Assembly (NCBI RefSeq): GCF_004210375.1 | Contig: NW_027467782.1 | Span: 37,561,771 to 37,625,770, forward strand | Source of the DNA: Tachypleus tridentatus | Lineage: Eukaryota; Arthropoda; Merostomata; Xiphosura; Limulidae | Direction of reading: 5' to 3' | Length of the DNA: 64,000 nt | Shown: positions 16,069-37,389 of the stretch, piece by piece | How the letters are laid out: the number at the start of each line of letters is the position of its first letter | Numbering within the stretch: position 1 is the stretch's first letter | The notes under the pieces: generated by a model | What the model was told of the DNA's origin: nothing | What the model saw: only the letters and a program-made list of their open reading frames with translations | Database searches by the model: none | Position numbers and translations under genes: made by a program

Positions 16069-16246
16069 CCACTAACCAACGTAAGCTTTATCGAAAGAAT
16101 CTGATTCTGTTATGGCGAAATAGAAAATAAGAAATTTATTTAATTACAAAAAAATATGATGCGAAATTTAACGTTTACAAAACTTGCAGATTAGAAAAAT
16201 TGACACCAACCTTCCTAAAAATAAAAGTATACTTCCAGACCAAAAA

Positions 16247-16365
16247 GCCCCCCAGTGGCTCAGCGGTATGTCTGCGGAATTATAACACTAAAAACTTGGT
16301 TTCGTGATGAGCAGAGCATAGCCCATTGTGTAGCTTTGTCCTTAATACAAAACAACCAGACCAAA
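16247..16365 (+). mobile_element. SINE-C copy
   Basis: Head CCCCAGTGGCTCAGCGGTAT with A box, anticodon-loop-like ATTATAA, then GCAGAGCATAGCCCATTGTG and a CAAAACAACC tail. A good reference copy for this third family. Confidence 0.8.
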
Positions 16366-17880: not shown

Positions 17881-17886
17881 AATGTA

Positions 17887-18115
17887 CAGGGTGACCCGTA
17901 AGTCTCTACCCATCCATATATCTGATGTATCTGTGTACTGTCCCTCATTCTCGCTGCATAATATTATGCGACGCCATGTTCTGTGAGACATTTTCAAGTA
18001 TAAATGGGCTTACATCGGCCATATTTCTCTGAAAAAAGAAACGAATACATAATACATGCGTAATTGAATATAACATAATAACATATGGATGGGTAGGAAC
18101 TTACGGGCCACCCTG
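17887..18115. mobile_element. 229-bp MITE with mariner-like ends
   Basis: Terminal inverted repeats of about 32 bp (CAGGGTGACCCGTAAGTCTC at the left, its counterpart ending GGGCCACCCTG at the right), flanked on each side by TA (17885-17886 and 18116-18117). The interior has no open frame. TA target duplication plus CAGGG-type ends fit a non-autonomous Tc1/mariner derivative. Confidence 0.85.
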
Positions 18116-18117
18116 TA

Positions 18118-18790
18118 TCAGCATTAGGCCTAACGTTAATGTTATCTGAGAACTGAGTGACAATAACGTTAGGCCTAAATACTGTAACTAGTTTAGTGTA
18201 AGTACACTGGAAACGCTACTGTAGCATGGAATAATGAAGTGGACTATTCCCAGTGTAAGGCTGTCGTTTTGAATTTGCCTTCGCATCCAGGCATGTAAGT
18301 AAAGTTTCAGACATATGCCTATTTTGTTGATGCATGGTTTGTTGGCTCATCTAATAGTCCCAGGTCAAATCTGAGCTCAAAAGAAAAGTTGAGGTTACAA
18401 CTCATTCTTCAGATATTAGGATTAAAGTACTCTAGCCTTTGACATTGCTTCTTGCAATCAGCTACCATAACAACAACCGAAATGAAACTTTTGCAATGAC
18501 TGAAAATTAATTTTTCTAAAATAGATTGAGGCCAGTCATGAATGGTTTTCAACATATCATAATACAGCAAGTCAATAAATGTATTTATGAATTCATGTTT
18601 ATGTGCTGATGGACCTGGACCTTAGGATAACTTTCTGACAGTCTTTGTCTAAATGTAGACCTAGAGTTTAGTATGTTTGACTGTCTTACGAATGTTTTTC
18701 TTTATAAATTTCAGTGTTTTTCTTATCATTATAATTATATATGATCCGTATTATTTTGTGTTTTTTTTTCTGTATTTTTCAGACTGCAAG
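18118..18790. other. Spacer with a small palindromic motif
   Basis: TTAGGCCTAACGTTA near 18125 and TAACGTTAGGCCTAA near 18163-18177 form an inverted pair with a loop of about 25 bases. Otherwise non-coding. Confidence 0.45.
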
Positions 18791-20870
18791 ATGAAACATG
18801 TTCATTTAAGTGGTGCACAAAAGAAAAAACTGGCAAAAGAGAACCAACAAAAGGCTTTGGATTTAGTGGCCAAGACTAGATAGCAGATTAATTTTTCACT
18901 GAACTTACACAACAAGATCTTCCACATCAAAACCATGAGAAGTCACTTGTACTGTATCTGACTCTGACATGATTAAATTTGAACCAAGCTTCACACCTAC
19001 AAGTACCACTTTGTCCACTTGAAGATCAGAACATCATGGTGACGTTGAGGTGTCACAGGCTTGCTCAACTGGAACAGCTTTCACAACTGATCTTACTATG
19101 CTTGTAAATTCTCCAGAAATCTCTCGTGTTAATGTTGATGCAAGTTGCTCTATAAGACAGTTTAAAGTTGAAATAATTTCTGAAAATGAAAATTGCTGAA
19201 CTATGGTAAAATGCTTCAGTCTACAAAAGATGAAGAAACTAAAGCAAAAGATCCAGGGTTGTGGCTCGATTTCTCTGCTGCTGATGTGGCTTATTGGATT
19301 GCTTGTGGACCCACTGACTGTTAACACCACAATGGGTCATTTGTTAAATCTTGCTGGATTTTTAGTAGTAGCAAACCAATGAAATACTGTTTGCAAAAAC
19401 TTTTCTTTGGGGTAAAAACCAATGGTGAGTAACACAAGAGAGAGTGGCTATTGTATTTACTATCGACTCTTTGTCCCTAAATTTTCCTCGTGTTTTGTTG
19501 AAATAGAAGGGTTCAGTGACTGGCGAAATACTATTGTAATTGATCATCATGAAAGAAGCACTACTCACCGAGACTCTAGCTAACATACTTAACTTACAGA
19601 CAAGGTTTAGGCTTGCAACAAGAGTTGGAAAAACAAATTAAAAGAAGAGTGCGATTACTGGGAACATGTCTTGGAGCACGCAATAGTTGTTATTTGTACG
19701 TTAGCTGAACGTAGCCTGGCTTTTCACTGAACAGATAAAATTTGGTTCACTGCAGAATGGGAATTTTTTAGAGCTACTTGAGCTCAAAAGTCAGTTTGAT
19801 CCATTTTTAGCAGGACACATTTATAAATATGGAAATTCTGGAAAAGGAAATCCTTCATACTTGTCCAAAACCGCCTGTGAAGAACACATTGAACCAATGG
19901 TTCAGAAGGTCCACACATTCGTTGTTGATAAAGTAACTTCTTCTGGTTATTTTAGCTTGTCAGTTGACTCGACGCCAGATCTATCACATATAGATCAGTT
20001 AAGAGTTGTACTCGATACTTAAAAAATGGGCAGCCTATTGAATGCTTTTTAACCTTTCTGGAACTAAAAAGTCATATGACTGATGAAATGGCAAACCCGG
20101 TATTGCAGTAATTACGTGAAGTTTGCAAACTTAATTTTACAAAATATAGGGGTCAGTCTTATGACAATGCTGCTAACATGTCTGGGGGTTATAAGGATAT
20201 GCAGCAAAAGATTTTAGAAGAAAATAAGTTTGCCATATATGTGCCTTGTACAGCCCATTCATTAAATCTAGTAGACCGAAGTTCTTTCTACTGCTGTCAA
20301 GTGGCAATTAACTTTTCTCTACAATATATTTGTTCTATACATTTTTTTCAGCCTCAGTTTTTTTGTTTGTTTTGAGTAGCACAAAGCTACTTGAGGGCTA
20401 TCTGTGCTAGCCGTCCGTAATTTAGCAGTGTAAGACTAGAGGGAAGGCAGCTAGTCATCACCACCCACCGCCAACTCTTGGGCTACTCTTTTACCAACGA
20501 AAAGTGGGATTGACCGTCACATTATAACGCCCCCACGGCTGAGAGGGCGAGCATATTTGGCGCGACGCGGGCGCGAACCCGCGATCCTCGGATTACGAGT
20601 CGTCGCCTTAACGCGCTAGGCCATGCCGGGCCTTTTCAGCCTCAACCAGCCAGTGGAAAATTTTTAAAGCTTGTACAATCAGGCAGAACGTGCTTCCATA
20701 TTGATCTCATGTTACTCTCGCTTCGTTGATATTCTCGATAGCACTTCTGATGATGTAATCTTTCCAGAATTTAGTCGAAGATAGTGCAGCTTCTGTAGTT
20801 GTAGCCTTTATTGCTTGAGAAAAGTTCGCTTCAAATAATAAGCTTTAAACGTCGCAATGACACCTTAATT
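18791..20870 (+). pseudogene. hAT-like (DUF4371, ZMYM1-type) transposase pseudogene
   Basis: The plus-strand frames begin with MKHVHLSGAQKKKLAKEN (18791), a start typical of the zinc-finger MYM-type-1-like transposon family. They continue with DPGLWLDFSAADVAYW (about 19250), CDYWEHVLERAIVVI-type sequence (about 19650), then GKGNPSYLSKTACEEHIEPM (about 19840), GYFSLSVDSTPDLSHIDQLR (about 19950), and QSYDNAANMSGGYKDMQQK (about 20155). Several frameshifts and in-frame stops break it, and a SINE-A splits it at 20357-20632. Coding resumes after the SINE with STSQWKIFKA-like sequence. No terminal inverted repeats were identified. Family placement is from memory of the domain. Confidence 0.85.
20357..20632 (-). 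mobile_element. SINE-A inserted in the hAT pseudogene
   Basis: Reverse-oriented full copy with a clean 12-bp target duplication TTTTCAGCCTCA at 20345-20356 and 20633-20644. The transposase reading is continuous across the duplication, so the SINE came later. Confidence 0.92.
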
Positions 20871-20879
20871 CATTAATTG

Positions 20880-21760
20880 CAGTAGAGATGTTGTATTGGG
20901 TGGAAGAAAATGAATTTTGACATTTTCATTAAAGTCACAAAGTCCCGTTGGATGGCTTTAAAGTTCAAGTTGTTTTCTTGTGCAGTAATGTTCAACTGCA
21001 GGACAAAATAACTTTTTTAACCAGTCTTCAAACAAAGGTTTTGTGACCCATGCTTTTTTTATTTCATCGCCAAACAACTGAGAGAGTCTTCTTTGCACAG
21101 CTGATTAGTGTTCGGGGGATTTCCGCACGATACACAAGCACACAGGTTTTAATTTAAAATCGCCAGATCCATTTCCGCCTAACAAGTGTTAAACGATCTT
21201 TCAACGCTTGTAACATGGCCAAGTTTTTTCATTTTCTGATAGGAAAGTTATAGAAGGCATATTTTCCCCAAAATAAACCCGTTTCATATTTGGTTATCTT
21301 TGTACCGAACTTTTTAATAATTTCTATAAATTCATTTGGAAATTTTTCAGCAGCATCTTTGTCTACACTTGAACTTTCGCCTGCAATACGAACATTATGG
21401 AAACCAGTGTTTGCTTAAAACAAAAGAACCAATCACGGCTTGCCGAAAATATTTCATTAGTTCCCCATTCTCCATCGTTCTCTTTTAAGGCGTTTAAAAG
21501 GCTCGTAGCTTTCGTTTGAATTTCCATTTGACTTAAAGGAATTCGTTTCTGATTACAATCTTCTAATCATATTGATAGCAGACGTTCCATATTCACCATT
21601 AGAGAGCTCCTTTTCTTTACGATTGTTTTCGAGGCAAAACAGTTGGTAGCCATTCAATACTGTTTTTACTGGTTCTTTCATTGAACAGTCTTACAGATGG
21701 TTCATTTATTCCTTTGTTTCGTGCTAGTTAGGTTTCTTTGGCTCGGTATCATCACACATT
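20880..21760 (-). pseudogene. Tigger/pogo-like transposase pseudogene
   Basis: Minus-strand translation, with frameshifts, shows a CENP-B-type N-terminal part (EWGTNEIFSASRDWFFCFKQ, about 21470), then KYETGLFWGK (about 21270, equivalent to the first catalytic-Asp motif DETGLFW), ALKDRLTLLLGGNGSGDFK (about 21190), and NKKAWVTKPLFEDWLKKLF (about 21050). It abuts the 3' end of the hAT relic on the opposite strand. The last catalytic region (LLLDNAPGH type) is not seen, so the element is truncated at its 3' end. Terminal repeats are not certain. Confidence 0.8.
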
Positions 21761-22055
21761 CTTTTCTCACGCATAATAAAAGGATCTCTGTAAAAAGTGT
21801 ACACACGTTCTTAACATGAAAAACTGAACTGCCGCTGACAGCAAGTGATGCTCAGATTTATACTGTGCAGTATATAATGTGCATGCGCATTGTATAGGCT
21901 TGCAGAAAGACCTAGAATAAGCGAATGACACAAATTCGTAGACATCTTTTCAGAAATATTAATTAAAATGTCAGCCATAAAAAGGGCCCAAAGACTTATA
22001 CGTATATAAATAAAGCCCCATTATAGTGAACCCCATACTGTTAAGCTGCACTGTG
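21761..22055. other. Spacer upstream of the receptor locus
   Basis: Possibly includes the 5' end of the Tigger-like element. No coding sequence seen. Confidence 0.35.
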
Positions 22056-22059
22056 GACC

Positions 22060-22312
22060 TCCTTTAATATCCAAGAACACACTTCAAAGACGAAGAGAAA
22101 TACGTAACAAGATATTTATGAAATTGAAGATTTATAGAAATATAAGTCTACGTTTCCAAAACCGAAGTGTCACAGTAACAAAATTACATTTAACAAAGGA
22201 TTTCATTCATGTACTATCTTGTAATTGAGTTATACGTTAGTTTTGCATGCTATTCTTCTCAGTTTTGGTTGTTTAACTGAGAAATGAACAAGTTAAAAAT
22301 CTAGAAGCATGG
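22060..22312 (+). repeat. Segmental duplication, block 1 (5' flank of receptor gene)
   Basis: Direct-orientation similarity to 45452-45715: shared GAAGAGAA, GATATTTAT, ATTTATAGAAATAT, ACAGTAACAAAA and TTTAACTGAGAAATG in order with moderate divergence. A worn SINE-A follows at the same place in both. Confidence 0.75.
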
Positions 22313-22326
22313 TTTGGTTTGGGTTT

Positions 22327-22605
22327 TTGGAATTTCGCACAAAGCTACTCGAGGGCTATCTGGCGTTCGACTCGTAATCCGAGGGTCGCGCGTTGGAATC
22401 CCGGTCGCACCAAACATGCTCGCCTTTCAGCCGTGGTGGCGTTATAATGTGATGATCAATCCCACTATTCGTTGGTAAAAGAGTAGCCCAAGAGTTGGCT
22501 GTGGGAGGTGATGACCAGCTGCCTTCCATCTTGTCTTACACTGCTAAATTAGGGACGACTACCACAAATAGCCTTCGAGTAGCTTTGTGCGAAATTCAAA
22601 AAACA
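22327..22605 (+). mobile_element. SINE-A with an inverted 5' piece
   Basis: It starts with about 40 bases of reversed SINE tail (GAATTTCGCACAAAGC to GGGCTATCTG), then switches at about 22366 to a plus-strand copy from GCGTTCGACTCGTAATCC to GCGAAATTCAAAAAAC. A worn plus-strand SINE-A occupies the matching place in the downstream duplicate (45745-45985). Confidence 0.8.
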
Positions 22606-23208
22606 AACTATTGAAATCTTATTAGTTTTGAAGAACAAAATATTAATACAGCTAATTGTAGTCATTAATCCCTATATAACACCATGGAATGCAGTATTTG
22701 TCACATAAGTTATATATGTGAATATTCTTTAACTGATTTTTTAATTTAAATATTGTTACAATGTTTGTAGGTTTATAACTACTCAATTATAATTTATATG
22801 TATCATAAGGCATCTGTTAGCAGTCTTATTATGGTTTATATCATAAATGCCGACTAAGATTTGTATTGTCAGAAGAAATTGCATAGAAAAATTTCGTATA
22901 AATTTTATTTGCTTTTACCTAAATTTCAAGTTGAACTCTTAGGCAAGTGTTGTTATTGTTTATTAAATCTAAATTATGCATAACATAAACATGAATATAA
23001 TTTCTCTGTTCAAGCGTCTTTCACACTACAGAAAACAATAAACTTTGCAATCATTATTGTTAGTAAAACGTTTTTCTACCTCACAATGTTACTTCAGTTC
23101 ATGACGTCATTCAAACAAGAATACTATTATGCGCATAGTAACACTGATATTTCACTTAGAAACAATACAGAAAGTGACTTACAAAGAGTACAGTGCAGAG
23201 AGATTTCA
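22606..23208 (+). promoter_or_regulatory. Probable 5' flank and 5' UTR of the Ig receptor gene
   Basis: About 600 AT-rich bases before the chosen start codon. The frame is open upstream from 23086 (another ATG), but the start at 23209 places a hydrophobic signal peptide at the N terminus and is preferred. I could not pinpoint a TATA box or initiator. Confidence 0.35.
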
Positions 23209-23497
23209 ATGGCTAATTACACTCAATTATTTTATATTTTCGCTAGTTTCCTGCTTGTTTCAGGTTTTACATTCGTCTACGAAATTGAACGTGGTTCTAC
23301 TCTTACATTAATATGTTCAAACCAAGCGAGAGAAGAACCAGTTATTTGGTACTCAAATCTCAAAGAAAAAGTTATTAATAGTGAGAGAACGCAAATAAAA
23401 TACGGTGGCAAATTAGTGCTAACCCACATCCAATTTGAAGACGCGGGAATTTACACATGCAAAAATCGTGAAGGTGATTACAAACATGATGTCAGAG
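23209..23497 (+). CDS. Exon 1: signal peptide and Ig domain
   Basis: Starts MANYTQLFYIFASFLLVSG, a good signal peptide. The Ig fold marks follow: STLTLICS (first Cys), VIWYS (core Trp), GGKLVLTHI, FEDAGIYTCKN (D-x-G-x-Y-x-C of strand F). The donor is CAGAG/GTAAAT at 23498, leaving phase 1. If the intron is retained the frame stays open to 23616 and would add a hydrophobic tail (HLLNCTNL, SSILLLNFFQP). One complete Ig domain in one exon, with phase 1 at its end, is typical of this superfamily. Confidence 0.8.
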
Positions 23498-26400
23498 GTA
23501 AATTCATGGTGTTTTTTTTTAGACCATATTTTCATTTATTAAACTGTACTAATTTAACAGAAATAGCATCTAAATTGATATCGTCCATCTTGCTTTTAAA
23601 TTTCTTTCAGCCATAACCTTTTCGTTTGATATTTCACACACCATGTGTATTGATTTAAAAATTAATTGCCTGCGTATACGTAAGATTACACTATGTAAGA
23701 AAATTTTTTACCTTTTCATGTTCCTGGGCAAAAAATGTTATTTTCTGATTGCTTATGCCTAAAGTAAATGGAAAAGGCCTATTGTCTTCAAACTTTGCTC
23801 TTGTGACTTGGGAGCGTGTATAACGAAAACATGATGGTAGAATATATTTGAGGGCTGATACGTGAAAGGGATTTATATTACAGTCGCAAATCTCGAAAAA
23901 GTATTTCTAAATATTTTTGTATAAATTTAGTATAAATACATGTAAATATTGATTCAGATGCTGTCAGGATCCGGCATGGCCAAGCGTGTTATGGCGTGCG
24001 ACTCGTAATTTCAGCGTCGCGGGTTCGCATCTCCGTCGCGCCAAACATGCTCACACTTTCAGCCTGGGGGTGTTATAATGTGACGGTCAATCCCACTTTT
24101 CGTTGGTAAAAGAGTAGCCCAAGAGTTTGCGGTGGGTGGTGATGACTAGCTGCCTTCCCTCTAGTCTTACACTGCTAAATTAGGGACGGCTAGCGCAGAT
24201 AGCCCTCGTGTAGTTTTGAGCGTAATTCAAAAACAAACAAACCATCGTAATTTAAAAAAATATAACAAATCTTTGGTTAAAAGGAATTTTAATTAAAACT
24301 TCATTTATTAAAACTGGTGTTTTCTTTTAAATTGATTCTATTATTCTTGTGGTTCAGTATTTTCAAATGACTCGCAAATACGTTGTTTTTTCACATTCTT
24401 TATGAATAAATTTAAATCCAAGTCGTATAAGTATGTCTTTAGTTTAAGTAGAGTGCATATTTACAGAGAAAAATAGAAACAAAAACTCACAGCTTAAAAC
24501 GTGTAATATAATCTATTGTACCATTTAATCATTAATTAAAAACTTTACGATTATAGTCTTATAATCGAACTGATAAGCAACCAGTTTTGGACTGACAACA
24601 GATAAAATCAGTTAACACTTAACATTAAATAACTATGTTCATGGAGTTATTGTTTTAATGAAATAGTCTCCCGATGGGACAGCGGTAAGTCTATGGATTT
24701 ACAACGCTAAGATCAGGAGTTCGATTGCCCTCGGTGGACACAGTAAATAGCCCGATGTGGTTTTGTTATAAGAAAAACTATGTGTGCTTGATCATTCGAA
24801 AAGCTTTTCATTCTCTACAGTTAATTAGAAAGTTAAGTTCTTGCTTTCTACTCCAAGTAAGCTATCAAATATATTAGACAAAAGTGAAAGAAGATTACCT
24901 CATACTTACAGTTTGTGGTCCCTACATATAGTTGTCAGATTTTCATGTATTACACGTGGACTGATATTATTACAGCTATAATAAGTGTATTTCTTTTCAA
25001 TTTATTCAAACATTTTCAAGGTACCTCTAATTGTAGCTGTAGTAATGTCAGTCCACGTGTAATAAATGAAAATCTGATAACTATGTGTAGGGGCCACAAA
25101 CTATAAGTGTGAGGTAATCTTTTGCTTAATAGATTTGATAGCTTACTTAGAGTAGAAAGCAAGAACTTAACTTTCTATTTGCGGTCACATACAGCGCTTG
25201 TACTAACATAGCTAACTCCGATCTACTGTTTTCCACTGTAAAAGCTAACTACTGTCAATTATTCTGAATTTTGTCTTTGAAAACTAACATCTCAGCTCTT
25301 GTTTTGTATATTTTATTTTGTTTTTCTCTATGAATTGATATATTAGTGATACTTACCAATGATCTGAAGACTTTTCTAATCATGGTTTTCAGTTGGTTGA
25401 TTCAAATAATTCATATTATTCGTTTGTTCACCTTCAATTTGTTTGTTTGTTTTTGAATTTCGCACAAAGCTACTCGAGGGCTATCTGTGCTAGCCGTCCG
25501 TAATTTAGCAGTGTAAGACTAGAGGGAAGGCAGCTAGTCATCACCACCCACCGCAAACTCTTGGGCTACTCTTTTACCAACGAAAAGTGGGATTGACCGT
25601 CACATTATAACACCCCCAGGCTGAAAGTGTGAGCATGTTTGGCGCGACGCGGGCGCGAACTCGGACCCTCGGATTACGATTCGCGCGCCTTACGCGCTTG
25701 GCCATGCCGGGCCCTTTTTTCACCTACAAAGTAAATAATTTCTTTATAGAATTGTCTCTGTTGATCAAACTGTTGTTACTGCACCAGATAGGAATTTTAA
25801 AATACTCCCATCTACGTTAATTAAATTGTGTTTTTATCGATTTCGTTCATAAAACGATACGTTATCTTTTATATCATTTAATTGTAATGAAAATTGAACT
25901 GTCTTATTTTCATATTATAGTTTTAACAACCTTCGTGTAATTTCCTATTAATACTATCTGCATTACTCTTAGTATTCTCAGAATATTTTGTAAATTATAA
26001 AATCTTGAAAATTAAAAGTATCATCTTCAAACTATAATACATCGAACAAGATTTATTAAATTGTATTAATATAGATATAAAAGTGTTTCTTTATATTGGT
26101 TTAATGTGTGTTTGCTCTTGTATTACAAGGAATTATTTGGTTTATCGTCTAATGATGTTGGATTCTCTGTTTGGAATTTAAATGTTACCTGTAGTATATT
26201 TATTTGAGTTGCAGTGTTAAATTTAAAAACGTGAAATTCTATTTTTTTTGTGTTACATGAATGTTGTTTTGAGTTTCGGGCTTGTTTCTCTGACGTAAAA
26301 TACGTGGAAGTTGCCATAAAGTATTTTATAAATGACATTAGTATTGTATTTGCTTTATTTTTTTACAAGAATTTAAGTATTTTGTTTATTGTATTTGGGG

Positions 26401-29400
26401 TTATTGACAGGGTGGGTATCGTGTTGTTGACTGAGGTTTCTCTATATCACCGTTATCTCAAATCTCCTTCCTAGTCGCTTTATAACCTAGAAACATCGAA
26501 CTATATATGAATTCTGTAATAAAAAGTTTTAAATTACCCATTGTAGAACGTCTGCAAAATTTATTAGCTTCAAGTGGGTTCCTCAGAAATATAAATGCAT
26601 GAAATAGATTATTACAATAATGTTAAAAGTACTTACAAGGAATTATTACTTTAGAGATAACATGAAATCAGTTTTTCTTAATTTTAATGATAGGAAATGT
26701 CGATGTTGGAGTGTGGTATGAATAAGTATTGGTAAACATATCCACATATAATTACTTTAAATGTTACCATCAATACTACACTCTTTGTTCGTCCATATAC
26801 TGATCCATCTAATCAGGACTCCAGTAATGGGTGATATTGTCCAACTCCAAGGTGCAGATGTTGATATTGACAGCCATAATATACTCTTGGAAGATGTATC
26901 ACATTCCATTAGTTGATGCTAAAGATGCCCTGAAAAGAGTTATTTCAGGGCAGTGATGAAGACGAATGCGTAATCTTATCGGTACTCCTGTAATAAACAT
27001 ACAGTATTAGTCAGAGGCTGCCACTGATGTTCATAGCAATAATAGTTTATAGGGATTAGTAAGCCATATCAAAACAGTTTTGAATATGCAACCTGTCATA
27101 TAATGTGACTCAATCTGATATAACATTTCTTAAATGGTGTGATGTAACCGAAAATTGGTAGCTTTTGGGAAAGGTATGTAACAGACCTTTCCAATGTAAA
27201 TTTTTATATGCCCATATCATGAAAATATATTCAAATGAGAATTTAAATTTTTCGAAACAAAGATATTTATTGTACGTAAGAGCATCGAAGAAATAATTTT
27301 GGTTTGCCAGAATAATTCGGAAAAAGACCTACAACAAGTCGTACGAACACAAATGTCAGAGATAAAAACCGCTGAAGTGTCCCAGGCGATGGTACGTAAA
27401 AAAATATCTCAGTCTTCTAACCGCTGAGTAATTAGATAGATATGCATGTTATTGTACACACAGACACACCAGTCACCTCACTGATGTAAGAATTATAGAT
27501 TTCTATGTGATCAGAGACTAGATGGATTATGGTAAACCTGTAGAGAGAAGTGATGAGGCTCCAAAGTTATTTTGATATAATGAACTCAACTTGTGAATGT
27601 TGAAGCAAAATCTTTTGTACTCTAAAGATACAAATCATATCTACGAAGTTTTTTGAGAACGTATTTTGAATAAACAATACTATAAATTTACAGTGAAAGG
27701 TGTTAGATCGCTATATTATTTATCTTGATAAATCCGCAAAAAATTAAGGATTTGGTTTTATATTAAATTTAAATGAAAAATTTTCTCGGAATGCATTTCA
27801 TCCAATTTCTGCATTATAAGGATATTATTTGATATTTTGTTGTTTGCAAGACACAATCATACACTGATACATTTTACGAACGTAATATTCCCAAAATAAC
27901 CTGTATTTTCATAACTGATATTAACATAAACAATAACAACAGTTCAACGTTTAACTGTGACAAATAAGAATTTTGCAAGGGAAACACCAACGGAAATCAA
28001 ATGTACCTATAGAAAACATAAAAAAAAGATCGTGTGTAATTTCATAAACTTCCAAGTTTGTGTGATTAGTTTCATTAGTTAACTCCATTAGGAAGTACAT
28101 AAAGAAACAAAAGTCTACTGTTAAGAAACTGTTTTGACACGTTTTATTTTTCTCACGAAAAGTAACATTAATGTTGTTATTTTACAACATTATTTATTTT
28201 TAATATTATTGTGAAAAACCTTAAAATTCCAACGGTGACACAAAACGTGCTAATAAAAATATTAACTCTCTGTTGTTTTCTCCAGTGTATGTTCCAGCCG
28301 AGAATCTCAACTGTACTCGTGGATACCAAAGAGATGTTAACAGGTGTTGTAAGTATATATGATACTCAATTACTTTAAACTGTTCACATTAAACACAAAT
28401 AGATGAAAGACTTTTAAAAATATGGAATTTTAGTTCAACACATATGTTTTTTGATACTAAAGACGTTGTTAGAACAATAAAATTAACACTGGGTAAATAA
28501 ATGTTTAGTTTTGTACTTTTAACGCTTTTAGATCCATGTCCTCCTGGTCACTATGACAATGGATTCCAAACTCACTGCCTGCCGTGTCCAGGAGGGACTT
28601 ACATGGCATCTTTTGCTGGTGACGCCTGTATACCTTGTCCTGATGACGAAATTACTGATGAAGAAGGAGCTGATAATAAAGATCTTTGTAGAAGTAATGG
28701 AACAAAAGGGTTTTAAAGTTTTCTTTTATTGTTTCCTTAACATTTTAAAAATGTTTATTTTTGTTCATGCAGATTGTTATAATACGATACTTCTTCATAA
28801 CTTTCATGGTTTTTAATGCATTAAAAAACTTTGCTTTTACTTGGAAATCCTACTACTCGTTTTTAAAGATGAGCTCAAACATTTACGACAAATAGTATTG
28901 AATAGCTGTCTTACCTCCAGTATATCATTTCAAAATTATGAACGGCTAACGCTGAAAGTCCTCGTTCAGCTATCCGCGAAATTGAAAAACAAACAAATAT
29001 AACGGTGTCTCAATATCACATCTGTGTGCGTCACATTATTACTAAAAAGACGTAAAGATATTTAACTAAAACAGTGTATGTCCCAAATCTATGTTTAATA
29101 TGTTTATTTTGTGTGCATAATGTCGTTTTGTAATAAAATACAGTAATTTGTCCAAATACAAAACAAATGTTTTAAAATACGATTATAACAACATTGGATT
29201 ATCAAAACGTTAGCAGTGTCTCATGAGTACTCAATAAAACTATTAGAAAGAATTGTTACCAAGTAAACGAAAAACTTCATGAGCAGTGACGTACGACGTT
29301 CAGTGTTTGTAGTCAAAATGGTATCGTTATTTATCTGGGAAATTTAGAGTAAAGAGAAATTTGTAAAATTACTGTTTTAATAGTGTTGTAAAGACGCAGA

Positions 29401-32352
29401 AACTACCATTCAGTGGATACGATTCTATAGTAAAATATAATTATGCACCATAATAAGTGAAGCTGTTAATTATAAAACTTAACACAGTAAGTGAATACCC
29501 ATTAAACAAACTGACTTTATTAAGTAGTCAATGGAAAGACAGTTTGTTTAATTTGTGTTATACATCTTTACAGTTTTAATGAATCTAAGTTGATTTAACT
29601 CACTGTGTTATACTGAGTTGTATAATATGTACATTATCGTAAAGAAAATGTCTAGATTTTTCTTGTATAGTGTGATCACGTGTGTTTGGCAGGGAAAGTC
29701 AGTAGGTTTCTTGTTGTATTGTCTATTAATGTAAATATGTTGGAAAACCTGACTGATTTTATGTTATATAACTATATAGTTATTGTTATTACATAACTGT
29801 ACTACTTGTCTACTAGTAAGGAGCTCAAATAATATAACAGGCGTCATTTTTCTTTGCTAATTATCTGTTTAACGTGTAAAGAAAAAATGTATATTTACAG
29901 TTGGCAAATTGTAAAGGTTGTTATCAATGTTTAATATGAAAATATATTATAAGTGTAAGAAATTTCATATTTATTTAATTGAAATTTTAATATGTTAATG
30001 AAGATTATTGTTGAACTTAAAGAATTATACACATTACTATTATTGTTAACTTACATTTGAAGTTTTATTTTTCTGTTTTACGTGACCGGTGGAGTACGTA
30101 AACTGATTTTAAATACGACTCTCTGTCTTAAGATCGAATTGAAGTGGTTTCGAAGGCTACGCTTCACTTGACTTCAAAATCTACAGTTCCAAGATGTGCT
30201 TGGCGAACAGCACTCATTTTGATGTGTCTTACTGCTTTGTGGTAAGTTACGACTGTAAGTTTTAACTGTGACGCATTATCCATAGCTTATTTAATTACAA
30301 TATGTATTTTAATGGACTTGAAACACGTGATTCTTATTTATTTATTTTCTGTAATGATCATGCAGCGTACTTTGTTTTTCTACACCTGGAAATATAAACC
30401 TCGGGAAGAACGGAATGTTTTGAAAAACCGTGTCGAACACAAACAGCTTGGTGATGAAAAGATAACCACTGATGAATTGGATATTTTGGAGGCTATGCCA
30501 CTGATCCCTGAATGTGAGAAGAAGGTCTCTGAAAAGAATGTTAAGAAGACAAAACTAATATACTAAGAAAGAAAAGAGTGACCAAACGAACAACCCTGGA
30601 GACGATATATGAAAACGACCTTGAAGAAAGGAATACTTTGGTTCGAAATTCAATTAAGTTCTTATTCATCTTACGTAATAATTAATATTTGATGCAAGTA
30701 AATTCACATTTTTACAGTTAAAAAAAAAAGATGCGTTCAGAGAATCTTTAATGTTCAGAGTCGTTTGAATGCGTGCAATTTTTTTTCTCCAAAATAGACT
30801 TATACATGTTCGATACCATTGAGGTCTAATAAGTCTATATGCTAGTTAAATTGATGAATCACCTCTTCTTCAATCTTAGTACATGTTGGAAGACAATTAC
30901 CATCCATTAAACTGAACACAGAGCCAATCATAACAATATATGATTGTGTAAGAAGTTCGCATTACCTTTACTGATGTCCATAGCATTAATAACATATGGA
31001 AAACATAAAGATCAGAATGCCCTTTCGTAATTTTTTATTCACATACATACTACCATTACTGATAATAAAAGCGAATTATTTTGTACGTTAGTGGCACCAT
31101 AATATATCATTTCCGCTCATATTGCTCACTTTATTTCGTTTTTTAACTGTATGTACAATGAAATGACGTCATGTTGGAGCTTTGAACATCTGATTCAGAT
31201 ATTATCAGGTTACACATAATCGGTATATAACGGCAACCTGCTTTAAAGGTGGATTGGGACCTTCTTAGCCAAGTACCAGTGTATTTGTGCCATTTTGTTG
31301 CAAGTGGTTCTACTATATCTTGTCAATGACGCTTTGAGACATTTTACAACAGTTTTTTTTCTTATTTTGACTGTCAGCCAACTTTCATTGGTCTGAAAGA
31401 CATTTAGTGAAATATCCAGTTCTCTTCTTTTGGACTTTACTAAGTTTATTGATTGTTTTAAAATGCTATAAGGTGCGTGATTTATTCCAAAGTTGCAAAA
31501 AAATAAGACAGTTTGAAAACTGTTTCTCTCTGTAACATAAGGTAAATAACCAGTCGTTTGAACTTCAGATCACATAACTTTTCATGTTTAATTTATATAA
31601 CAACAAATTGAGTAGAACACTTAACATTTAATTATAAACGTACTTTCATCTTGTCTAGTTATATAACAATAAATTGAGTAGAACACTTGACATTTAATTA
31701 TAACCGCACTTTCATCTTGTCTAGTTATATAACAATAAATTGAGTAGAACACTTGACGTTTAATTATAACCGCACTTTCATTTTGTCTAGTTATATAACA
31801 ATAAATTGAGTGGAACACTTGACATTTAATTGTTACCGTACTTTCATCTTGTCTAGACAATAATATAAACAATCTAGTTATCCTTTGTGAACGTGTAAAA
31901 TATAAATGGAAAACAGTATTTAAGCTATTGTCTGCTGTATATCATTCTTTATTCACTGCGTGAAACAATGTTTGAAATAGTTTTTCTAGTTTCCAGAAAA
32001 CATTTATGAGATAACTGAAACCAATTTCATAATTTATAATTTTTATAGAAACATTTATTTGGTTTTATGCATGTTATAGTAAAATTATTGCTCAAATTTT
32101 GAGTGTTGCACCACTAAACATAACTATATTCTACATCTTCAGAGAGAAACACCAGCGTCAAAACAAGGAAAAGCTATTAAAGAATATATCCAGCGACCTC
32201 TGTTTCCTAGAAATGTGAACAATTACGATGAACTTATTATCGTTAAACCAAATAGTAAACAAGGACATCGAAAAAAAAAGGTTGTTATTCTCATTGAAAA
32301 TTCTGACAGCCAAGATACGTTTATCATTGGAAAAGTTCGGAAACAAACCTGA
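23209..32352 (+). CDS. Candidate single-pass receptor: Ig domain + ephrin-receptor-like Cys module + TM (6-exon model)
   Basis: Predicted type I cell-surface protein; no gene name recognised. Proposed exons: 23209-23497, 28286-28348, 28532-28693, 30133-30241, 30366-30539 (end uncertain), 32143-32352. Order: signal peptide (residues about 1-22), one Ig domain (Cys36, Trp47, DAGIYTC with Cys84), a linker with two Cys (106 and 117), an ephrin-receptor-like/GCC2-GCC3 module (about 120-170, pattern CPPGHY, CPGGTY, CPDDEIT), a hydrophobic segment from about 198, then a basic cytoplasmic tail. Junctions 1-2, 2-3 and 3-4 are all phase 1, as usual for shuffled extracellular modules. The junction between exons 4 and 5 does not keep the long tail frame (phase 2 against phase 0), so either a microexon is missing, the tail is very short, or the locus is damaged. 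Such a protein would bind an extracellular ligand; its function is unknown. A secreted or pseudogene form is possible. Confidence 0.65.
23972..24240 (+). mobile_element. SINE-A copy in intron 1
   Basis: Plus-strand, almost full-length: CCGGCATGGCCAAGCG head, GGTTCGCATC B box, body with GATGACTAGCTGCC, tail of CAAAAACAAAC. Same strand as the host gene. Confidence 0.9.
24665..24775 (+). mobile_element. SINE-B copy in intron 1
   Basis: TGGGACAGCGGTAAGTC head, GAGTTCGATTGCC B box, then AATAGCCCGATGTGGTTTTG and a TTATAAGAAAAAC tail. Its tail matches the 33-bp minisatellite unit of the arms. Confidence 0.85.
24827..25176. repeat. Foldback element in intron 1 (about 150-bp arms, about 52-bp loop)
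   Basis: 24827-24981 is the reverse complement of 25034-25176 with roughly 90 percent agreement by eye. Shared blocks include AGTCCACGTGTAATA, CACAAACT, GATAGCTTACTT and TAGAAAGCAAGAACTTAAC. As RNA this would form a long imperfect hairpin within the receptor pre-mRNA. It may be a foldback transposon, a MITE or an endogenous hairpin RNA source. Confidence 0.88.
25439..25713 (-). mobile_element. SINE-A copy in intron 1, reverse orientation
   Basis: Tail at left (GTTTGTTTTTGAATTTCGC), head at right (TTGGCCATGCCGGGCC). It is absent from the matching interval of the downstream duplicate, so the insertion came after that duplication. Confidence 0.88.
26005..27405 (+). repeat. Segmental duplication, block 2 (intron 1)
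   Basis: Direct-orientation similarity to about 47660-49100: shared order of TATAAAAGTGTTT, CTCTTGTATTA, GGAATTATT, TTGTTGACTGAGGTTTCTC, CTTCAAGTG, GGTAAACATATC, GATGAAGA and GCAATGTAAA-like pieces. The repeat is non-coding intron 1 sequence of the receptor gene. Confidence 0.75.
28286..28348 (+). CDS. Exon 2: short Cys-containing linker
   Basis: A 63-base exon after TTTTCTCCAG, ending at TGTT/GTAAGT (a near-perfect donor). It joins exon 1 in phase 1 and reads VYVPAENLNCTRGYQRDVNR, then Cys. Both ends are phase 1. It includes an NCT sequon for possible N-glycosylation. Confidence 0.7.
28532..28693 (+). CDS. Exon 3: ephrin-receptor-like (GCC2/GCC3) cysteine module
   Basis: Acceptor AACGCTTTTAG; donor AGAA/GTAATG; 162 bases, phase 1 at both ends. 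It reads YPCPPGHYDNGFQTHC, then LPCPGGTYMASFAGDACIPC, then PDDEITDEEGADNKDLCR. The spacing CPPGHY-x7-C-x2-CPxGTY-x8-C-x2-CP-x4-T-x3-GA-x5-C is the signature of the ephrin-receptor-like/GCC2-GCC3 disulfide module, complete with six cysteines. This is the clearest coding stretch of the window. Confidence 0.88.
28694..30132. other. Intron 3 of the receptor model
   Basis: AT-rich. About 28920-29000 contains a worn SINE-A tail (CTAACGCTGAAAGTCC, then CGCGAAATTGAAAAACAAAC). The last about 180 bases before exon 4 are also similar to 42490-42663. Confidence 0.55.
30133..30241 (+). CDS. Exon 4: juxtamembrane stalk and start of transmembrane segment
   Basis: Acceptor CTCTGTCTTAAG; donor TGTG/GTAAGT. 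Only the phase-1 frame is open: RIEVVSKATLHLTSKSTVPR, CAWR, then TALILMCLTAL, a hydrophobic run that should continue in the next exon. A damaged relative of this exon exists at 42664-42778, which supports its being a real ancestral exon. Confidence 0.65.
30366..30539 (+). CDS. Exon 5: cytoplasmic tail, part 1 (frame unresolved)
   Basis: Acceptor GATCATGCAG. The long open frame (phase 0) reads RTLFFYTWKYKPREERNVLK and continues strongly charged, with DELDILEAMPLIPECEKK, up to a stop at 30564-30566. A donor AAT/GTTAAG at 30540 would link in frame to exon 6; AAG/GTCTCT at 30525 also would. However, exon 4 ends in phase 2. In that phase this exon reads VLCFSTPGNINLGKNGMF and stops, which makes an uninterrupted membrane segment with a very short tail. 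Confidence 0.45.
30567..31570. other. Non-coding, within intron 5 of the model
   Basis: No repeat or exon recognised. AT-rich. Confidence 0.4.
31580..31860. repeat. 65-bp tandem repeat, about 4 copies
   Basis: Unit containing AATTGAGTAGAACACTTGAC and TTTCATCTTGTCTAG, repeated with few changes just upstream of exon 6. The repetitive minus-strand open frame across it is a by-product. Confidence 0.85.
32143..32352 (+). CDS. Exon 6: cytoplasmic tail, part 2, with stop
   Basis: Acceptor CTACATCTTCAG. In phase 0 it encodes 69 residues and a stop: RETPASKQGKAIKEYIQR, PLFPRNVNNYDELIIVK, a basic patch GHRKKKVVILIE, and SQDTFIIGKVRKQT. YDEL is a YxxL-type motif usable for endocytosis or as half of an ITAM. 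A possible AATAAA lies about 1 kb downstream (33373-33378). Confidence 0.5.
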   Translation, partial: RETPASKQGKAIKEYIQRPLFPRNVNNYDELIIVKPNSKQGHRKKKVVILIENSDSQDTFIIGKVRKQT

Positions 32353-34284
32353 TTTTTCTTCAAAACTGAGAAATAGAATTAATAAACGAATTTATAAAAC
32401 AGCCATTGTTAATATGTTCACTCTAGAGTTAAGAGAAATCAAGATGGATTTTACCTCCACACTATACAGTTACACGAATGGGATTGATACTTACAAAATT
32501 GCACAAACTTTTTAAATTCAGTATCATTGATATTATTGGGTTATCAGAAACTTACATGGTAATTTAACTATTTACGTTTATGTTCAAGTAAATTAAATAT
32601 AAACTCTAAAAACTTAGTCTTAACATTTTATCGGAACATTCATAACTATTATTGAAATTTAAGAGACTGTGGCTTTAGTTCAACAATTCACAAGCGTTTT
32701 TTCATGTTTTTATCATTTCCTTTTTTGCAGCATTTACTTATTACAATATATAATGTTAAAACTTGTTTATAATATTAAATCAAAAGTAACGAAATGTTTG
32801 TATACATATTTTTCGCCCATTTAAATGTAACAGCTATTATACATTAAATGCTCATTTCGGTAATAATTGTGTGTTTGTTTATATTGTTTGTAATATAGCT
32901 CTAAGTAAATTTACTGTCATAATATAGTCCAGCAATTCACAGTTGTTACACTGAGATTTACATGCAACATTTTTTTTTACTGAAATGTATGATCTACATG
33001 AACTTCTTCAATTTCTACGTTTAATGTGTTTGACATAGTTGATTACTTCGCTTAAGCCACGTATTGGTTCTTCAATTATTACACATTGATAATTTTCTTG
33101 TGCTTTGTCTACATGTTGGATTACGTATTAATTATACAACATTTTCAGTAGAATTGTTGTGATATGCCTATGACATATTCTGTTCTTATCTTACAGTTTA
33201 TATTTATCGTTTTCAAATGGTACTCAGTGATTAACGTGTAACACTGTTAAGATATAATTTACATGCACCATTTTCGGTTATTAAAGTATTATTGACATGT
33301 GTCATCTTTCAGAGTGACGTGTAGCTGTTAGAGGTTGCGTCACACTGATTGTTACAGTTTATGCCTGAAATCAATAAACTAAAAGTTGAAATACATTTTA
33401 CTTTGTGTCTATCAGATGTGCTGGAACTCTAAATAAAGATAGCTTAACTGACTCTCGACCATAGTTAACTAGTTCACGTGTTTCACGTGCATGTATAGCG
33501 TGTCCTCTGCATAAGGAACAAGACTCTTTCCATCATCTGATAATGAATGAATGAATGTCGTCGGTGTTTGGGTACATACCCTGGAGGGTCAGGTTCTCTA
33601 AGACTTCTTCCTCCAACATCTGATAACATGGAGACATGTTTTGTTTTTTTGAAAAGGACGCCAGTCTTCCATAGGAAGGTCGTGTAAGTTAATAATCAAC
33701 TAGAATTTTCTTATCATCAAATTCAATACACGTGCTCTGCCTGTAACTTTGTTGTTGCTCTAGTGGCTGGAGTCGAAGATATTTTAATTTCGTGGTTGTT
33801 TGATCTTAATTAATTCGTCCTGACAGAAAATGTCGGACAAAAACTTAATACAATTCATCACACGATAAAACGAATATTTTATTAGTTTAAGAAAGAAATG
33901 TTAAAACTAAACCGTCCTTTTAAATCCGATGCAGAATATCCACAATCACGAAAACTTCAGATTTCTATTCTCTCATGAACTATATTTTTCTGGAAAACAA
34001 TTTTCAACTAATAGCAGTACTGATACATAGTGCAGAATAATTCTAATATTTTAACTACCAAAGACTGCCATCATGCTATTAAACATAGGAGGATAGATTC
34101 AGAAAATCAGATGCTTCATTATAAAGTGGTTATTTCTAATAATTTTCATATTTGATTAAATATTAATTTCATTATTTTTAAGAGAATTGTCAGGAATAGT
34201 GGACAAATCTAATAACTGCAAAAGAGGGAGCTTCTATTTTATTGATCAACTGCCTGATCAGAAAATGTCAGTTGATAAATAATT
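32353..34284. other. Downstream of the receptor gene
   Basis: Possible 3' UTR, with AATAAA at 33373-33378 and again near 33433. A short ATGAATGAATGAATG run lies near 33544. No exon recognised. Confidence 0.35.
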
Positions 34285-34520
34285 TTGTTTGAATTTCGCG
34301 CTAAGCTATACGAGGGCTATTTCCGCTAGTCGTCCTTAATATAGCAGTTAAAGACCCACCGACGATTGTAGGACTACTATTTTAAAAATAAATAGTGGTA
34401 TTTAACATGACTTTATAACTTCCCTACCGACGAAAGGGCGAGTATGTGTGACGTCGATTCGACCATGTGACCCTCAGATCATGGAACGAGCGTCCGAACC
34501 ACCTAGCCAATTAATAAATT
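34285..34520 (-). mobile_element. SINE-A copy, heavily diverged
   Basis: Starts GTTTGAATTTCGCGCTAAGC and ends with a CGTCCGAACCACCTAGCCAA head. The middle shows deletions. Confidence 0.7.
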
Positions 34521-35265
34521 ATGAAAATTTTGAAAAATGTCGTCCAATTTGATAATACAAAAAATATATTATTATATTTACAATAAAATTAAGTAATCCA
34601 CTTTCGTAGAAACGTTTATCATTTATACTTAAATAATTAGGTTGCTCCCTTACCATCAGTCAAAACATAATCATATTCAAATAATGACGTATTCCACTTA
34701 CCTTGAACAAAATTATCTTCCTATTATGCTTCAAAATTTGAATTGTATTTTATTTATTGTATTTTTGACTTGTACAGTTATCAAAATTAAATTCAATAAA
34801 GCTTCTTTGTTTTGTATTTCATATGATTATTTTTCTTTTATATTTTATTTTGCACGTCTAGTTATATCAAAGACTATTGACGAAGAATAACGTTAATAAG
34901 TTTCAGATATTTCAAGTACTAATTTATTCTAATACTCGAGTTATCATTCAAAAGTATCATCTAAACTATTAAGTACAGGCTATAAATACATCTAGGTATT
35001 TATGTACACTATACAATATATTGTAGAAAAATATCATTTTTCATAATGAAAATAACAAATCAAACAAAAAAATCTTAGAAATGAAGTATTCTCCCATTTT
35101 ATTTTTCTTTACCTTAGGTACATTTTCTCATTTCTCCACAAATGTATAATTCACAGTAGACAAACAAATCAAGGTTCTCGCGCTTTCGTAAAGTACATTT
35201 TTTTAGTTGATTAACACAAAATCGGAGTTCGATTATTTAATTTATCGTTTCTTTATTCACTGAGA
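34521..35265. other. AT-rich non-coding sequence
   Basis: The 82-codon frame at 34642-34890 is hydrophobic low-complexity without domain or splice support. Confidence 0.4.
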
Positions 35266-35269
35266 GAGC

Positions 35270-35512
35270 ACGTCCTGGTGTTAGCGTACCTGGAGGGTTT
35301 ATTATTCGCATCCCGCTGTTAAAAAATTTCTCTCACACTTTAGGAAAATGGATTCGCTACAAGAGGGACAGTAAAATTCCAATATTTGTAAAACAGTTGA
35401 CAATGAATACCTTTTTGTAGCTGTCTTTTCTCTAGTTCAAAATACAAAACTGCTGAGCTCACAAAGTACTTGCTCAGCTTTACGCTAAAATTATGAAACA
35501 AACAAAAATACC
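35270..35512 (+). mobile_element. Worn SINE-A-like copy
   Basis: Head-like GTGTTAGCGTACCTGGAGGG and ATTCGCATCCC, tail-like GCTAAAATTATGAAACAAAC. The body is poorly matched, so this is an old copy at best. Confidence 0.4.
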
Positions 35513-35950
35513 TTCACTTCGTTTTTATGAGCCTAAAAACACACACCTAAGATTATTTATTATACTTTTCGTGATGACACCTTTGTATTTTATGTTTCAT
35601 CAATCACTTCAAAAAGAAACATTCGAGGTTATTTCACCTGATTTATAAGAGAGCTTCTCTTTTCATTAAGGACATTTTTCATAAACTAAATTATGACGGC
35701 GACATAATTTAGGAGTGTCTTTGAGATCTTATGAACATGATAATCCATGTTAAAAACTGTGTCTAACAATCGATTCTGAACATTAAGCTCTAATCTAACT
35801 GTAATTAATATACTCACAAACGTAAATAACAATAAATATCTATTTTCCTTAACTTCTTCAGCACCTTTATTTTGTACATTGTGTAAGCAAAGTTAATCGT
35901 TTTTTTATCATCTTAATGACGAGAAAAACCACATGTAGATAAAATATATA

Positions 35951-37385
35951 CGCTGCTAGCCAAAATCTTAAGGCCAATGAACATAAATAAAAAATATGCA
36001 TTTTGCGTTGTTAGACTCAACCACTTATTTGAGTAGAGCTTCGAAAGATGGAAATAAGAAAAGGAAAAAAACACAACATTTTTAGCATTTAATAGGGAAA
36101 ATGTGAACACTATGAAATAAGCCTAAATACTAGCTGGTCAAATGTTTAAGACCATACCAAAAAGAAGTCCTAAACAGGATAGAAAATGCCCAACAAGAGG
36201 TCTCAGTAGTGAATTGCACGGCTGTCATTGCGAATAACTTCAAACATTCGCTTTGGCATGATTGACAGAAACGTTTGCAGAAGGCTGACTGGAATGTTAT
36301 TCCAAGTGGTGAAGATGACTTTACGAAAATCATGCACTTTTGAAATTGACGTTCATTTCTATAGACTTCCTTTGCCATCCACCCCAAACATTTTCATTGG
36401 GGTTCAGTTTGGACGAACACGCTGAATGGTCCAAAAGAAACGCGTTATTCGCCATGAAAAAATCCTTTGTCCTGCGGGTATTGTGGATTTCAACGTTGTC
36501 CTGCTGAAAGATCCAGTCATTTTTACACAAGCGAGGGTATTCAGTCAATAATGGTGACTGCCAATATCGCCACCTGCTGTTTGACGCCCTTGTATAACCT
36601 GAAGCTCCATTGTTTCATGGAAGAAGAAAGAACCCCAGATCATGATGGAAGCTCCTTCACTGTGTCGTGTAGAAAATGTCTTCGGTGAGATATCCTTGTC
36701 GTGCCAATAACGTTTGAAGCCATCTGGACCACCCAGGTTAAATTTTTTCTCATTAGAGAACAAAACATTTGTCCACTTTTCTACGTCCCATGTTTGGTGC
36801 TTCTCAGCAAAGTTTAAAAGAGCTGTTTTGTGGTGTGGAAGGAGGCGTGGCCTTTGAACACGTTTACGTTTTCTAAAGCCTTTCTCTTGTAAATGCCGTC
36901 TTATTGTTTTTGAGCTGCATTCTGCGTCCGATAGGGCCTTAATCTGGTTCTACGATTGGCTGGTGTTGTCTTGCTGGATAAACCGTCGAATCCCAGTGCT
37001 CAACGTAAGCGAAATTTTTTTGGTCGACCACTTGAAATTCTCGTTCCGGTCAAGGTCTTTTAAGATATTTGCAACAGTAGTTTTACTACGTTCAATCACA
37101 CCAGCAATGGCACGTTGAGAGAGACCTTGCTTTAGCAGCTTGACAGTTCTGCCACTTTCACACTATGTCAAGTTTTCAGCCTTTGCCATATATTTTCCTC
37201 AATCTAACACAGGAGATGTCAGTGGGAGATGTTGAGAACGCTAATGCTTGAACACAAATGATTAAATTTCGTTACGTATTTACCTATTAACGCTTCGTTT
37301 GAGTATGGTAATAAAGTTGTGTTTTTTATTTTCACTTTTATTATTTTCATCTTTGGAAGCTCTTCTCAAATGAGTGGTTGAGTCT
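35951..37385 (-). mobile_element. Tc1-like DNA transposon, one end lost
   Basis: The left end at 35951 (CGCTGCTAGCCAAAATCTTA) follows a TA. A further inner repeat (GCTGGTCAAATGTTTAAGACC) lies near 36133, as in IR/DR-type Tc1 elements. Subterminal inverted repeats match between about 36010-36057 and 37336-37384 (GACTCAACCACTTATTTGAG and its complement). The outermost about 60 bases of the right end are missing, so the element cannot be mobilised as it stands. Confidence 0.85.
36135..37189 (-). pseudogene. Tc1-like transposase pseudogene
   Basis: Minus-strand reading begins MAKAENLT and meets a stop at once, then continues as KLLKQGLSQRAIAGVIERSK (helix-turn-helix), GFRKRKRVQRPRLLPHH, VLFSNEKKFNLGGPDGFKRY, ASIMIWGSFF, GSFSRTTLK or, in another frame, IFQQDNVEIHNTR, and LNPNENVW. 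The DDE positions can be seen: the first is changed (SNEKKF where the family has SDEKKF), the second is FQQDN, and the third lies in LNPNEN. Several frameshifts and stops are present. Confidence 0.85.
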
Positions 37386-37389
37386 AAAA

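Follow-up and report, generated by a model that had tools for sequence, protein, structure and literature searches.

The fish novel immune-type receptors (NITRs) and the TREM-type receptors are single-Ig type-I receptors, the former being lineage-expanded, and we know of no stalk of the GCC2 kind in either group. The sDscam proteins carry FNIII repeats. In chelicerates they are described as having three Ig domains and, in two of the three types, tandem 5′ cassettes, with Limulus among the species examined (PMC5775551). Proteins with an Ephrin_rec_like or GCC2_GCC3 domain, such as the Eph receptors, ELAPOR and ApLRRTK (PMC4200351), place a cysteine-rich module ahead of a transmembrane segment.

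The gene analysed here, in a stretch of 64,000 nucleotides of Tachypleus tridentatus DNA (the window), has such a module in the same place. Unlike the Eph receptors and ApLRRTK, its family gives no Pfam match, in the 368-residue joined protein of a paralogue, to an ephrin-binding domain, an LRR or a kinase, and hence to neither the ephrin-binding domain nor the tyrosine kinase looked for in assessing membership of the Eph receptor tyrosine kinases. The family resembles sDscam in being an expanded chelicerate set of IgSF surface proteins whose Ig parts vary while the rest is constant, but it differs in its single Ig domain, its GCC2 stalk, the lack of an FNIII match in Pfam and its whole-gene copies. 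With the NITR and TREM-type receptors it shares the single-Ig type-I layout, which we use as a works-like comparison only. No published description of a single-Ig/EphR-stalk family was found in the open PMC literature, searched for the domain combination, for horseshoe crab Ig or receptor families and for genome papers. Our analyses make it quite probable that the locus belongs to a germline multigene family of type-I Ig/EphR-like putative receptors, which has been block-duplicated and has many decayed copies, the window gene being one frame-broken copy.

Exon structure and domains of the window gene

Table 1. Features of the window gene and its surroundings (window coordinates).
Feature	Position	Strand	Description
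Exon 1	23209..23497	+	Signal peptide and Ig domain (Cys36, Trp47, Cys84); ends in phase 1
Exon 2	28286..28348	+	Linker of 63 nt containing two cysteines; both ends in phase 1
Exon 3	28532..28693	+	Cysteine module of the Ephrin_rec_like (GCC2/GCC3) type; both ends in phase 1
Exon 4	30133..30241	+	Juxtamembrane segment, then the first half of the membrane-spanning helix; phase 2 at its 3′ end
Exon 5 (3′ end approximate)	30366..30640	+	Rest of the membrane-spanning helix, then a basic cytoplasmic stretch; frame broken in the window copy
Exon 6	32143..32352	+	Last cytoplasmic exon, with stop codon
Duplicated surrounding sequence	10100..62811	.	Copied together with the gene, in pieces differing in extent

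The exons at 23209–30241 are real, and they bear out the signal peptide, single Ig domain, GCC2/GCC3 module and membrane segment of the preliminary description. As it had also stated, the junctions across the extracellular part (e1/e2, e2/e3 and e3/e4) are all in phase 1; e4/e5 is in phase 2. The ATG of the Ig exon and its GT donor, at 23498 in the window, are conserved in all 29 aligned copies, the window included, with a gap after the GT in one (L054). The AG/GT borders of exon 2 are common to five of five aligned copies, again counting the window, and those of exon 4 to the aligned paralogues. In the open paralogue L034, the transmembrane helix spans the e4/e5 border with a mean hydropathy of 2.17 over 19 residues.

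The proposed domain search placed both extracellular modules. Against Pfam, the window Ig exon scored 37.2 bits for Ig_3 (cut-off 30), 32.9 for I-set (23.7) and 27.8 for ig (21.8), while the joined protein of the paralogue, on contig C5, fell slightly under the cut-off for Ig_3 (29.5) and I-set (22.9) and equalled it for ig (21.8). Ephrin_rec_like (PF07699; cut-off 23.1) was matched at 42.4 bits by the joined window exons 1–3 and at 45.3 bits by the paralogue. The Ig core residues C36, W47 and C84 are unvarying in 12 of 12 aligned members from three subfamilies. Judged by profile match and by this Cys/Trp/Cys core, the window gene is a member of the immunoglobulin superfamily. Length changes in the Ig exon (0, 3 or 4 residues) are located between Cys36 and Trp47, in the loop where CDR1 lies in V domains.

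A first AlphaFold model (mean pLDDT 47.8) was set aside, and the fold comparisons rest on a second, of mean pLDDT 71.4, for which the Foldseek matches were weak throughout: the top row was the first Ig domain of NCAM2 (E 8e-3), and NITR and TREM-type receptors followed at E of about 0.05–0.2. By sequence, the closest PDB matches of the Ig part are the adhesion and guidance proteins contactin-1, NCAM2 and Robo2. These matches would suit a non-immune cell-surface family of the same architecture, which might for instance recognise gametes, self or neuronal contacts, and the pairing of a variable tip with a conserved tail fits such roles as well. However, matches to contactin-1, NCAM2 and Robo2 are generic for I-set domains. 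This alternative, which shares the family reading and differs in the role alone, is a genuine possibility, albeit one that we lean against.

A dispersed family within duplicated blocks

Three protein searches were made of the animal's own 2.17 Gb genome; its hemocyanin indicates an Asian horseshoe crab. Scoring the best 150 candidates of 342 (Ig), 691 (linker/stalk) and 699 (transmembrane/tail) gave 150, 150 and 159 matches, respectively. These chain to at least 254 loci on at least 14 contigs, with a floor of 150 distinct stalk exons, and the copy number stands as a lower bound. The new receptor family once proposed therefore stands as a multigene family; its recognition role we infer. The relatives lie elsewhere in the genome, and not, as had been thought, decayed within the same window: with a full-length paralogue protein as query, and with two Ig sequences of divergent type, tblastn against the window found the window gene alone, all other rows having E values of 0.84 or worse.

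Among the matches listed, 84 of the 150 Ig matches are followed within 10 kb downstream by a stalk match on the same strand, none has one on the opposite strand and 5 have one upstream. This order extends to divergent members, since eight of the 32 divergent Ig exons, these eight being 47–51% identical, lie upstream of stalks that are 76–89% identical, seven of the eight stalks falling at 83–89%; the remaining 24 have no stalk match among those listed. The preliminary description had allowed that the Ig exon might come from a different gene. The co-linearity argues against this and makes it appear unlikely, although the Ig–stalk order is partly inherited through block duplication. The broader proposal of an artefact, either chance exon-like ORFs unrelated to each other or an Ig exon from another gene, could draw on the repeat-rich window, the frame-broken copy that it holds and the 66 of 150 Ig matches without a downstream stalk match among those listed. 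Nevertheless, the Pfam domains above cut-off, the conserved splice borders and the genome-wide same-strand order, eight divergent members included, make it very improbable.

The duplicated unit extends far outside the gene, and contains transposase-like debris, SINE-like repeats and a Tc1/mariner-like insert. A copy on contig C19 (23.72–23.77 Mb) matches the window in ordered pieces between roughly 10.1 and 62.8 kb. Such large units raise the alternative that most copies are passengers, dead or neutral, of mobile or ampliconic DNA, whether one very large composite element or repeated segmental duplication. Only a few source genes would then work, and copy number would reflect the carrier and not selection for receptor diversity. 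Long inverted arms in the window (171–4482 and 55768–59349) are in keeping with a carrier of this sort. On the other hand, the outer arm ends (171/59349) show no matching target-site duplication, the C19 copy runs past the end of the right arm at 99.5% identity, the shared extent varies between copies, unlike that of a fixed element, and loci are clustered in tandem, for example 12 of them inside 254 kb on C5.

A giant TIR transposon, suggested by the arms, was tentatively rejected. At the expected distances in other copies, the left arm was matched at 0 of 10 left edges and the right arm at 2 of 10 right edges (L010 and L020, the latter continuing beyond the right arm's outer end); these counts use matches of at least 300 bp, the six longest per locus, and absence is weak evidence since collinearity was assumed. 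An endogenous virus was also rejected, with no viral fold match to the Ig model at E ≤ 0.001 and no viral core gene seen by eye among the ORFs listed; the Pfam search of the window covered seven pieces, the Ig exon included. Tail matches reach further than tip matches, as a 3′-end retroelement might produce, but this was set aside because the introns are duplicated too.

Open frames, decay and divergence

Exon 5 of the window copy shows two single-base length differences from the open paralogues; the reading frame ends after about 18 codons of this exon, and tblastn requires two frames to cross it. The same exon is open in three of the six paralogues read (L029, L032 and L034) and broken in the others (L030, L031 and L033), and that of L034 diverges from the other copies only past a shared ENDL. 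The window copy looks like a decayed member of the family. Decay is frequent in the family: 9 of 29 aligned Ig exons are broken in frame or contain stops and, in a hand tally of the 150 Ig matches from the best 150 of 342 candidates, 26 contain stops and 22 are truncated.

These numerous frame-broken copies favour a passenger origin of the copy number, as do the 22 of the best 40 Ig-exon DNA matches, the window included, that are 98–100% identical. Substitutions at the three codon positions (6/5/7 in exon 3, 6/5/4 in exon 4 and 12/8/6 in exon 5; five to seven copies, broken ones included) show no third-position excess, and exon 4 varies more than the sequence flanking it (0.138 vs 0.074, broken copies included), so that recent copies look close to neutral, which again suits passengers. 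However, open frames are retained in the divergent subfamilies. Among divergent Ig matches (44–52% identical), 27 of 32 are open over nearly full length and 5 have stops, against 5.5% open in a crude simulation of neutral decay at 50% identity that ignores shared ancestry; 146 of 150 stalk matches lack a stop, against a simulated 58–87% at 76–96% identity under the same simplification. Frame retention therefore exceeds the crude neutral expectation. Taking both sides together, we regard a family made up mostly of passengers as rather unlikely.

The supposed fast evolution is borne out in part. Ig Ka/Ks between subfamilies A and B, with frames open, is 0.64–0.92, yet the values are 0.44–0.54 to subfamily C (one sequence) and 0.37–0.65 within B, and recent open copies give a pooled pN/pS of 0.53. 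The variants observed form discrete subfamilies and are not hypervariable.

The cytoplasmic tail and a putative recognition role

The tail is short, basic and without a recognised domain. Exon 6 has the lowest variability of the exons compared (8 variable sites in 211 over seven copies; flanks, 14 in 201). Its best 40 listed DNA matches are 96–100% identical, and of 40 typed last-exon protein matches, 34 are 93–99% and 6 are 79–85% identical to the query. Scanning the tail with a set of motif patterns (ITIM, TRAF, PDZ and similar) gave no signalling motif beyond one YxxL/I, one YxN, one [DE]xxxL[LI] and two PxxP. In comparison with the NITR and TREM-type receptors, the tail has no ITIM and a single YxxL/I.

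In the block-duplicated family that we favour, each intact member would run from a signal peptide through a single I-set/V-like Ig domain and a GCC2/EphR-like cysteine stalk to one membrane-spanning helix and the basic tail. The family would have reached its 14 or more contigs through the copying of blocks tens of kilobases long, partly in tandem. The Ig tip may bind an extracellular ligand, microbial or of self/cell-contact type, and the stalk may keep it away from the membrane. The conserved tail would couple to a shared intracellular partner, and many tips would thereby feed one response. The role is probably innate recognition by hemocytes, or other surface recognition.

A bolder proposal, which we find doubtful, is that the germline of horseshoe crabs encodes several hundred receptors of this single-Ig, EphR-stalk kind, whose tips are diversified while they share one conserved signalling tail. 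Block duplication would be ongoing, with one 70-Mb contig as the stronghold, and the animals would use the set for recognition at the cell surface, as an arthropod counterpart of the expanded vertebrate Ig receptor families. At least 150 stalk exons would be large for an arthropod Ig receptor family, and a family of that size with an Ig tip and a conserved tail offers a concrete candidate set. If instead most of the copies are passengers, this locus would lend itself well to studying the genome-wide spread of a gene by duplicated blocks.

Architecture and state of the receptor gene

The preliminary description of a gene at 23209-32352 was borne out by sequence reading and translation: its exons encode a signal peptide, a single Ig domain, a cysteine module of the GCC2 type (the stalk) and a membrane segment. 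The encoded domains follow one another in this order. The junctions of the extracellular part (junctions 1-3) are in phase 1, as had been proposed, and the fourth, between exons 4 and 5, is in phase 2. The domain search likewise upheld the assignments, since the Ig exon exceeds the Pfam cut-offs of both Ig_3 and I-set, and the stalk module exceeds that of Ephrin_rec_like; no Pfam domain matched the tail, the cytoplasmic part encoded by exons 5 and 6.

When the joined protein of the paralogue locus L034 was searched against PDB sequences, its Ig part retrieved contactin-1 (E 3.5e-7), NCAM2 and Robo2. Its stalk matched a mastigoneme-like protein that contains an ephrin-receptor-like domain (E 6.6e-5), as well as thyroglobulin and EphA2. 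Structure prediction had been suggested as a check. For another paralogue, L060, AlphaFold modelled the mature Ig part (15-row alignment; mean pLDDT 71.4, pTM 0.57) as strands and one short helix. Foldseek returned nothing from the PDB at E <= 0.001. The top row was NCAM2 Ig1 (E 8e-3), with TREM-1, FcmR and NITR10 lower, and no viral fold matched the model at E 0.001. The whole exon 1 of the window gene was modeled with a mean pLDDT of 47.8. The Ig assignment is based on Pfam, not on the AlphaFold model.

The window copy is broken. Compared with six paralogue loci (L029-L034), its exon 5 carries two single-base length differences, and the frame stops about 18 codons in, directly after the membrane helix; the window gene is therefore a copy that has decayed or whose tail is truncated. 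Exon 5 is open in L029, L032 and L034, the last diverging from the others downstream of a common ENDL, and is disrupted in L030, L031 and L033. The decayed relatives proposed to lie in the same window were not found, as tblastn recovered this gene only, whether the query was a paralogue protein or either of two divergent Ig types.

Features of the window
Feature	Position	Strand	Remark
Exon 1	23209-23497	plus	
Exon 2	28286-28348	plus	
Exon 3	28532-28693	plus	
Exon 4	30133-30241	plus	
Exon 5	from 30366	plus	
Exon 6	32143-32352	plus	with stop codon
66-bp tandem repeat	31527-31856		4 registered copies; intron preceding last exon; several registers matched by paralogue loci
Inverted arms	171-4482 and 55768-59349		bound the window; ~88-96% identical in pieces; left arm holds 33- and 48-bp minisatellites
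41-bp array	4570-5730		directly inside arm
79-bp array	53996-55384		directly inside arm
Transposase-like debris	18600-21600		duplicated together with gene
Tc5-type HTH match	21366-21566	minus	Pfam 22.6 bits, cut-off 22.2
Tc1/mariner-like element	35948-37308	minus	HTH_Tnp_Tc3_2 38.2 bits, piece 36548-36949

A multicopy family in the genome

The family was sought in the T. tridentatus genome itself (2.17 Gb, 205 contigs). DNA searches each gave 40 matches from the best 40 candidates, window included, at 92-100% identity for the Ig exon, 95-100% for the stalk region and 96-100% for the last exon. Protein searches, in which the best 150 first-look candidates were scored and one candidate may yield more than one match, gave at least 150 matches for the Ig (of 342 candidates), at least 150 for the linker and stalk (of 691) and at least 159 for the membrane segment and tail (of 699). 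The minimum stalk identity among the protein matches listed was 74%.

Among these listed matches, a stalk lies within 10 kb downstream on the same strand for 84 of 150 Ig matches, upstream for 5 and on the opposite strand for none; 66 Ig matches are without a downstream stalk, and 67 of 150 stalk matches without an Ig partner. Exon 5 follows within 6 kb of 58 of 150 stalk matches, versus one upstream, and 39 of 110 exon 5 matches have exon 6 within 4 kb. The Ig-stalk order is partly inherited because whole blocks were duplicated, and more weight therefore falls on the 8 of the 32 divergent Ig matches listed that are paired with a stalk; in these eight the Ig is 47-51% and the stalk 76-89% identical.

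Chaining 450 of the listed matches (150 of the 159 tail matches taken in; gap <= 12 kb) yielded 254 loci spread over 14 contigs. All three parts (Ig, stalk and tail) occur in 42 of them; 41 combine Ig with stalk, 17 stalk with tail and 14 Ig with tail, while 52, 50 and 38 have a single one of the three parts. Lone parts may reflect match lists that are not exhaustive, real loss, or gaps above 12 kb by which one gene is counted twice, so we take the 150 distinct stalk exons as the floor of family size. Among the matches listed, 12 loci stand in tandem within 254 kb on contig C5, and 132 are singletons at 100 kb spacing. The window's contig, C19 (69.8 Mb), holds 73 of the 254 loci, including many with 98-100% identical Ig exons.

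The genome also contains the hemocyanin family, with 25 matches. An exon of Limulus hemocyanin II has its best match there at 88% identity over 133 residues and its next at 62%, as would suit an Asian horseshoe crab better than Limulus. At one hemocyanin site, C2:90606358-90606795, the open frame was 478 residues long in one search and 150 in another, possibly an intron-poor copy or a difference in how the searches read it.

Constraint, decay and spread

Of the 29 Ig exons aligned, one of them the window's, 20 have an open frame. The 16 distinct open ones have a pooled pN/pS of 0.53 (pS 0.0515, pN 0.0273; flanks 0.0735); across the 29, variable sites per codon position number 12/18/22, and variability is below that of the flanks (0.180 versus 0.304). 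Lengths between the Ig cysteine and tryptophan differ by 0, 3 or 4 residues. Nei-Gojobori Ka/Ks values, given without a significance test, are 0.64-0.92 between the Ig of subfamilies A and B (four sequences each), 0.44-0.54 to subfamily C (one sequence) and 0.37-0.65 within B; within A, two of six pairs exceed 1, based on few changes. Among the Ig matches listed at 44-52% identity, 27 of 32 are open across nearly their full length and 5 have stops; a crude neutral simulation leaves 5.5% open at 50% identity. Stops are absent from 146 of 150 stalk matches listed, versus 58-87% simulated. Exons 3-5 (5 to 7 copies compared) point the other way: a third-position excess is absent, and exon 4 is more variable than its flanks. 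Our reading of these sequence comparisons is that the family has probably been under long-term constraint, and that many recent copies are constrained weakly or not at all.

The duplicated blocks contain transposase-like debris together with SINE-like repeats. They also contain a Tc1/mariner-like insert, which has ~82% relatives at loci L009, L013 and L015. Three pieces of the debris, at 18665-20372, look hAT/ZMYM-like; none of them scored above a Pfam cut-off. A copy at C19:23.72-23.77 Mb matches the window piecewise and in order from ~10.1 to 62.8 kb; it continues beyond the right inverted arm, and the piece beyond its left end (L019) is without a match to the window. Because the extent of the block differs from copy to copy, this copy runs past the arm, and the outer ends of the window's arms lack a matching target-site duplication, we prefer block duplication over a single giant element as the probable mode of spread. 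A further copy on C19 has edges (L017 on the left, L018 on the right) that form an inverted repeat with each other over 7.4 kb at 98%.

A putative receptor family

In searches of the open-access PMC literature, no report of this receptor family came up. For the mangrove horseshoe crab, the genome paper counts 230 tandem gene clusters, and the immune genes that it names include lectin genes (PMC7210998); the word "immunoglobulin" is absent from its main text and from that of a second horseshoe crab genome paper (PMC7815833). The family's genes may already stand in public annotations as uncharacterised loci.

We infer roles in binding, signalling and immunity. Most likely, the product is a type-I receptor whose Ig tip would bind an extracellular partner, with the stalk acting as its spacer, and the conserved tail would couple many tips to one partner.
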